Source: Desulfurococcus sp. (GTDB lineage Archaea; Thermoproteota; Thermoprotei_A; Sulfolobales; Desulfurococcaceae). From it: a stretch of DNA of 64,000 bases. The position numbers were made by a program, and so were the translations under genes. This document shows positions 6,894 through 51,029 of the stretch, piece after piece (position 1 is the first letter of the stretch; each line of letters opens with the position of its first letter). The stretch covers positions 62,001-126,000 of the forward strand of contig JAPNUX010000006.1 of the NCBI GenBank assembly GCA_026626905.1, written 5' to 3'. The notes below the pieces were generated by a model that worked only from the letters and a program-made list of their open reading frames with translations, was not told where the DNA came from and did no database searches.

Positions 6894-6945
6894 CCCTCTC
6901 TCTTTAAAACTTTTACATCATCGAGATTTCTAACGGGGGTTGCTA

Positions 6946-7317
6946 ATGAATGTTGCTGAAAAAGTAGTCAAGGTTATTGTTGAAGTACGCCTTGATTTCA
7001 GTGAGGAGAGTGATAAAGCTTTAAGAAGAGTCTTCTATGTTGCCGAGGAACTACTCGATAAATATGGCGTGTGGGTTGAAATTATTCCAGAGCACGTGTG
7101 GTTTACAGATCCATTGGAAGCTGAAGTAATGGATCTCCCGCAAATATACATTAACGGTAAGCTTAGATTCATAGGTAGAGCCCCATCCATAAGCGATCTA
7201 AAATCAGCAATAATGGAGAAAGTAGGGGTTCAGCCAGCTAAGAGAGAAGAGGCAGGAATCGTTGGCACCAAGCTCTATGATGGCGGCGGGATAGGGGACG
7301 CTGTTCTCGCATTTTAA
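6946..7317 (+). CDS. Small thioredoxin-fold-like protein without CxxC
   Basis: About 123 residues. ATG at 6946 is chosen because GGGGG lies six bases upstream; an in-frame TTG at 6940 is less likely. The middle (VMDLPQIYINGKLRFIGRAPSISDLKSAIMEKVG) has the cis-Pro-then-strand-then-helix ending typical of thioredoxin-like folds (LPQIYINGKL), but there is no redox CxxC. A glycine-rich end (DGGGIGDAVLAF) follows. Function unknown; the fold call is an inference from this one stretch. Confidence 0.6.
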   Translation: MNVAEKVVKVIVEVRLDFSEESDKALRRVFYVAEELLDKYGVWVEIIPEHVWFTDPLEAEVMDLPQIYINGKLRFIGRAPSISDLKSAIMEKVGVQPAKREEAGIVGTKLYDGGGIGDAVLAF

Positions 7318-49957: not shown

Positions 49958-50230
49958 CTAGGCTGAGGCTTCAGCTTCACTTTTCAGCGTGACAACTAGG
50001 AGGTTCCCGGTTTCCCCGCGCCCAATCATTAGTGTGAATTCATCTGTCTCCACGCTTACGTTTTTCACGCTGTGTAAGCCAAGACGCTCGAATGCTAGTA
50101 TCTGGATTCTAGCTATGTCTACAGCCTTGGATAGAATAGTATTGAACTTTCTGGAATCTATTCTAGTAGCGTTAGTTGTATAGTCAACGACTCTTCCACT
50201 TCTATCCATTTTAACTATAACGACACTCAA
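49958..50230 (-). CDS. Small protein with roadblock-like look, unknown function
   Basis: 90 residues from TTG with GGGG upstream. The pattern MDRSGRVVDYTTNATRIDSRKFNTILSKAVDIARIQILAFERLGLHSVKNVSVETDEFTLMIGRGETGNLLVVTLKSEA has strand-helix-strand-strand-strand order like a Roadblock/LC7 domain, including ETDEFTLMIGRGETGNLLVVTL for the final hairpin. The fold call is tentative. Confidence 0.5.
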   Translation of the reverse strand: MSVVIVKMDRSGRVVDYTTNATRIDSRKFNTILSKAVDIARIQILAFERLGLHSVKNVSVETDEFTLMIGRGETGNLLVVTLKSEAEASA

Positions 50231-50284: not shown

Positions 50285-50298
50285 TGATACCGGTATCA
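50285..50298. terminator. 14-bp perfect palindrome, terminator- or operator-like
   Basis: TGATACCGGTATCA is fully self-complementary. On the minus strand it lies 14 bp beyond the TAG at 50313-50315 and is followed about 15 bases later by a T-run. It could end the HTH/coiled-coil transcript or be an operator for the next gene at 50230. Its position favours the idea that the real end of the upstream gene is 50313, not 50532. Confidence 0.4.
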
Positions 50299-50312: not shown

Positions 50313-50531
50313 CTAGCCGAGGGATTTCTCCAGCTCCTCTAGGATGCCTTGAATACTTCCTGAAAGCTCGCTCACAGCATCTCTGAGAGCTTTAACACTA
50401 TCCTCGAGAGCTTTTAGTTTATCTTCTAGTCTTGACCTGACTCCCTGGATCTCCTCGCTTCTCCGCTTAACTTGATCCTGGAGTTCTTTCACCTTGGCTT
50501 CGAGGGCTTGAACTGCATCCTTGTACTTACT
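50313..50531 (-). pseudogene. In-frame coiled-coil continuation of the HTH gene beyond its TGA
   Basis: Directly after the TGA at 50532-50534, the same frame stays open for 72 codons to TAG: SKYKDAVQALEAKVKELQDQ, then VKRRSEEIQGVRSRLEDKL, then KALEDSVKALRDAVSELSG, then SIQGILEELEKSLG. The heptad pattern continues that of the upstream C terminus (YEDQVKALEEMLEKHKERIKELESALSE). No ATG lies in this frame and the first GTG is internal to a heptad with no ribosome-binding site, so it is not an independent gene. Likely explanations are a nonsense mutation, a base-call error or stop readthrough. Confidence 0.7.
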
Positions 50532-51029
50532 TCATTCACTTAGAGCTGACTCGAGCTCCTTGATCCTCTCCTTATGCTTCTCTAGCATCTCCTCTAACGC
50601 TTTTACTTGATCCTCGTATCCTGCTGCAGGAGCTTTGATGAACGGTGCTACTAGTTTCAGCTCTCCTTTCCTGAGCTTCTCGTACGTCTCGTGAACTAGT
50701 TTTCCTGCCTTCGTCTTCATGGTTAAGTGTCCTCTAATTGCTGCCTCACTTCTCCCTAATTCCTCGGCGATCTGCCCTACAGTGAGGCCGGCCTTCATTC
50801 TCGCGTATGCTTTAGCAGCTACAGCAAGACTGTCAACCCATGTGGACCTCTCCACTGGATCTCTGATCAACTCGATGATTTCAGGTCTGTAGAGGGTGCC
50901 TATTATAAGCGCCATCTCAAGCTGGCTTATCTCTCGTTTACCTATTGGTTTTAACGGTATATTTGATAAATCAACTATAATCTCCTCCATGCTTTCTTCA
51001 CGGGTTTCTCCTTCTTTAGGAGCCTCCAT
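50532..51029 (-). CDS. HTH protein with C-terminal coiled coil, apparently truncated by an in-frame TGA
   Basis: 165 residues from ATG with GGTGGT upstream. Residues 95-125 form an HTH (AGLTVGQIAEELGRSEAAIRGHLTMKTKAGKLVHETYEKLRKGEL), preceded by a helical region (LEMALIIGTLYRPEIIELIRD). The coiled coil starting at about residue 137 is cut by TGA but continues in frame for 72 more codons (see the neighbouring entry), so the intact protein would be about 238 residues. Probably a DNA-binding regulator that oligomerises by its coiled coil. It lies downstream of the KaiC-like gene on the same strand. Confidence 0.75.
   Translation of the reverse strand: MEAPKEGETREESMEEIIVDLSNIPLKPIGKREISQLEMALIIGTLYRPEIIELIRDPVERSTWVDSLAVAAKAYARMKAGLTVGQIAEELGRSEAAIRGHLTMKTKAGKLVHETYEKLRKGELKLVAPFIKAPAAGYEDQVKALEEMLEKHKERIKELESALSE

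Follow-up and report, generated by a model that had tools for sequence, protein, structure and literature searches.

Is a stop codon in the middle of a coiled coil part of the normal expression of a gene, or the trace of a recent accident? This question is raised by a locus of Desulfurococcus sp. lying in a 64,000-nucleotide stretch of contig JAPNUX010000006.1 (the window). On the minus strand, a gene for a helix-turn-helix (HTH) protein starts at position 51029 and runs for 165 codons until a TGA at 50532-50534. This short open reading frame (ORF; 50532-51029) encodes an HTH regulator with a near_KaiC domain and the first part of a coiled coil. Past the TGA, the same frame stays open for 72 sense codons (50316-50531), up to a TAG at 50313-50315. 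An earlier note, made from the letters of the window, had described a TGA inside the coil followed by these open codons, and this arrangement is confirmed. The heptad pattern does continue beyond the TGA, as the note stated, but its register is broken once close to the stop.

The note also held that the extension has no start codon of its own. This is true for ATG but not for GTG, which is present in frame at 50490-50492 and opens a 59-aa ORF downstream of the TGA. The gene could have been split in two, with the GTG beginning a coiled-coil peptide of its own beside a short regulator. However, no ribosome-binding site is evident ahead of the GTG in the sequence, no relative carries a split gene, and within the coil the codon makes natural sense as valine. 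Such a split is extremely unlikely, and nothing supports the GTG as an internal start.

The encoded protein belongs to the archaeal HTH regulators associated with KaiC and has its coiled coil at the C-terminus. Its N-terminal part matches NCBIfam TIGR03879 (near_KaiC_dom) over residues 50-121 (profile positions 1-90 of 91; E = 1.1e-17), with a score of 64.3 bits that falls just below the curated cut-off of 65.1 bits. TIGR03879 is a domain of probable regulatory role that occurs in the vicinity of KaiC homologues; a literature search returned no mention of it. A Pfam search of the protein gave weak HTH matches. An alignment of three sequences served to build a structure model, in which tryptophan was put at the TGA solely to permit folding. 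The model has a helical domain predicted with confidence as far as about residue 120, and a single long helix at residues 138-237, which is interrupted by the TGA at residue 166. The best match of the fold search against the PDB only reached E = 0.45, and DNA-binding HTH domains (DnaA, Trp repressor, sigma region 4) account for several of the weak matches. A search of the PDB by sequence mainly yielded coiled coils of a generic kind. Elsewhere in the genome, a distant paralogue of the HTH protein (G000:C7:3977-4450; 26% identity) is encoded by an uninterrupted open frame of 172 aa.

Directly upstream of the HTH gene lies a gene for a KaiC-like ATPase (PF06745; 51246-52004, minus strand), a likely functional partner by family association. 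The same order is found in G002, one of the two other genomes of the genus sample, which comprises three genomes including this one. In the other, G001 (stretch 9924-19103 of L039), about 7.5 kb separate the HTH gene from the closest KaiC-like orthologue, which is 87% identical and lies on the other strand; hence, the pairing with KaiC is not strictly kept within the genus. The gene downstream (49958-50230, minus strand) starts with TTG and encodes 90 aa without a clear Pfam family. It adjoins the HTH gene in both same-genus genomes, with 50-58% identity.

The 72 codons beyond the TGA are evidently not a chance open frame, judging from three properties of the sequence. Their GC content by codon position (0.65/0.32/0.47) resembles that of protein-coding DNA and is near the values of the neighboring genes; a run of 72 open codons would arise by chance with a probability of about 1.5-2%; and in a global alignment to the coil ends of G001 and G002, only 2 of 2000 shuffles made with the hydrophobic pattern retained do as well. 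No further stop or frameshift is present in the extension. A coding-like, homologous extension fits an ancestral coil that was recently cut. It fits readthrough of the TGA equally well, so this property does not separate the two.

In both same-genus genomes, the gene is uninterrupted and about 238 codons long. In the codon alignment, the position of the TGA, a core position of the coil, is occupied by a leucine codon in the four nearest relatives: TTA in G001, CTC in G002, CTA in G020 and CTC in G008. Their coils end at the place corresponding to the TAG of the window, and the frame downstream of the TGA is homologous to these coil ends, which in the relatives belong to one ORF. This is the check that the earlier note had suggested for the locus in close relatives, and it yields a sense codon opposite the TGA with a homologous frame downstream. 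A scan of genome contigs added only two relatives, both more distant. An order-wide search gave at least one match in 118 of 197 genomes, some of them only generic coiled-coil matches. Among the orthologues that were read individually (29, two and eight in three partly overlapping sets), none shows coil sequence resuming after a stop. The apparent stops inside other orthologues are, for those read individually (the more distant ones not all among them), ordinary terminal stops crossed by the alignment. Since the same-genus orthologues and the others inspected are uninterrupted, and since the extension shares homology with the ends of the relatives' coils, the long form is ancestral and the stop is private to this genome among those compared.

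The TAG is the ancestral stop. A perfect 14-bp palindrome, TGATACCGGTATCA, does lie just beyond it, at 50285-50298, between the HTH gene and the next gene. The idea that it marks the normal end of the transcript finds no support: the window contains 12 perfect palindromes of this length, folding at the site is no better than that of shuffled sequences (z = 0.32), and the single further exact copy in the genome is situated within a nitroreductase-like ORF. This location in a coding frame also led to the rejection of the palindrome as a shared operator. No evidence points to a function for it. By a simple estimate, about 4 perfect 14-bp palindromes would be expected in 64 kb, fewer than the window contains.

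A leucine codon in the four closest relatives, together with the lack of any other inspected orthologue having a stop and then more coil, bears out the first explanation offered by the earlier note, a recent nonsense change or a sequence error. If the stop were an error of sequencing or assembly, the genome would truly contain a sense codon and the protein would be full length. The stop is indeed seen in one draft genome only (8 contigs), and the extension shows no decay. However, the rest of the window argues against an error. ORFs were taken from the parts of G001 and G002 that are syntenic with it and matched against the window only; 118 of them have a homologue there at 45% identity or more, many window genes being covered twice. 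The HTH gene is the only truly interrupted gene among the window genes that can be compared: three other flagged stops are upstream of start codons, and one match with three stops (window 6894-7271) looks like an antisense frame. It follows that the sequence is not generally error-prone and, also, that TGA is not generally read as sense. An error is considered rather unlikely, and less likely than a real nonsense change.

Readthrough, the second explanation of the earlier note, assumes that most ribosomes halt at the TGA while others put in an amino acid and carry on, so that the regulator would be made in two lengths. The intact, coding-like frame downstream agrees with this, and the absence of an added stop or frameshift would also be expected from continued translation. 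Nevertheless, the idea does not withstand the conservation check that the note itself had put forward, as the TGA is absent even from the other members of the genus, nor was recoding machinery or a stimulatory RNA structure found. In the genome search, SepSecS gave no match, and the best candidate for tRNA-Sec scored 39.4 bits against a cut-off of 47 and overlaps ordinary serine and leucine tRNAs; selenocysteine was rejected on these grounds. No tRNA with a UCA anticodon is among the tRNAs identified, although the expected Trp, Cys and His types are not among them either. The RNA around the TGA forms no stimulatory structure and is less structured than shuffled sequences (z = +1.53). Moreover, a review of recoding in Archaea reports readthrough there only for selenocysteine and pyrrolysine (PMC8211752). 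Overall, readthrough is very unlikely. Conserved readthrough producing two forms was rejected, as the stop is private to this genome. A leaky, species-specific readthrough is possible but finds no support here. In such a case, this species alone would read the TGA in a context-dependent manner, without selenocysteine, and make a minor long, strongly dimerizing form of the regulator beside the major short one; this is even less likely.

The explanation that most probably applies is a recent and real nonsense change: an HTH-regulator gene with a long C-terminal coiled coil would have gained an in-frame TGA at a core leucine in the lineage of this genome only, and its product would be truncated. 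The TGA may have originated by one substitution or together with a net 12-base deletion that is found just after it, relative to G001 and G002, and beside the register break in the heptads. The predicted product is a protein of 165 aa in which the DNA-binding domain is retained, whereas most of the coil is gone, its length falling from about 100 to about 28 residues. It would probably still bind DNA, but dimerize or bind a partner less well.

The cost of such a loss could be tolerable, as coil length varies freely in this family. The open frames of the orthologues in the order range from about 146 to 277 aa, and short-coil orthologues occur elsewhere in it, for example with open frames of 151 aa (L027) and 165 aa (L029), which suggests that the short product may still work. 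Against the preferred explanation, all complete orthologues within the same family as this genome exceed the 165 aa of the short form. The annotation should present this locus as an orthologue, in truncated form, of a conserved regulator, rather than as a possible case of recoding. A real stop would make it a natural truncation, from which one could learn how much of the coiled coil this KaiC-associated regulator requires.

In comparison with known systems, the locus shares with programmed readthrough genes (selenocysteine or pyrrolysine in Archaea) a stop within the frame, beyond which the frame is open and coding-like. Unlike in those genes, the stop is not conserved, SepSecS was not found and no RNA structure is present at the stop, whose position holds no catalytic residue but a coiled-coil leucine in the relatives. 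The TIGR03879 proteins of Thermoproteota share with the present protein its HTH domain, the neighboring KaiC-like gene, the C-terminal coil and the presence of close orthologues across the order; the present protein differs from them by a score slightly below the 65.1-bit cut-off and by the in-frame TGA breaking its coil, which is absent from every other orthologue inspected. The locus also resembles ordinary lineage-specific nonsense mutations and truncated pseudogenes: the stop occurs in one lineage, the nearest relatives have a sense codon, and the downstream sequence is still recognizable as homologous. No difference from these is evident, and the product here keeps its whole DNA-binding domain and may still be functional.
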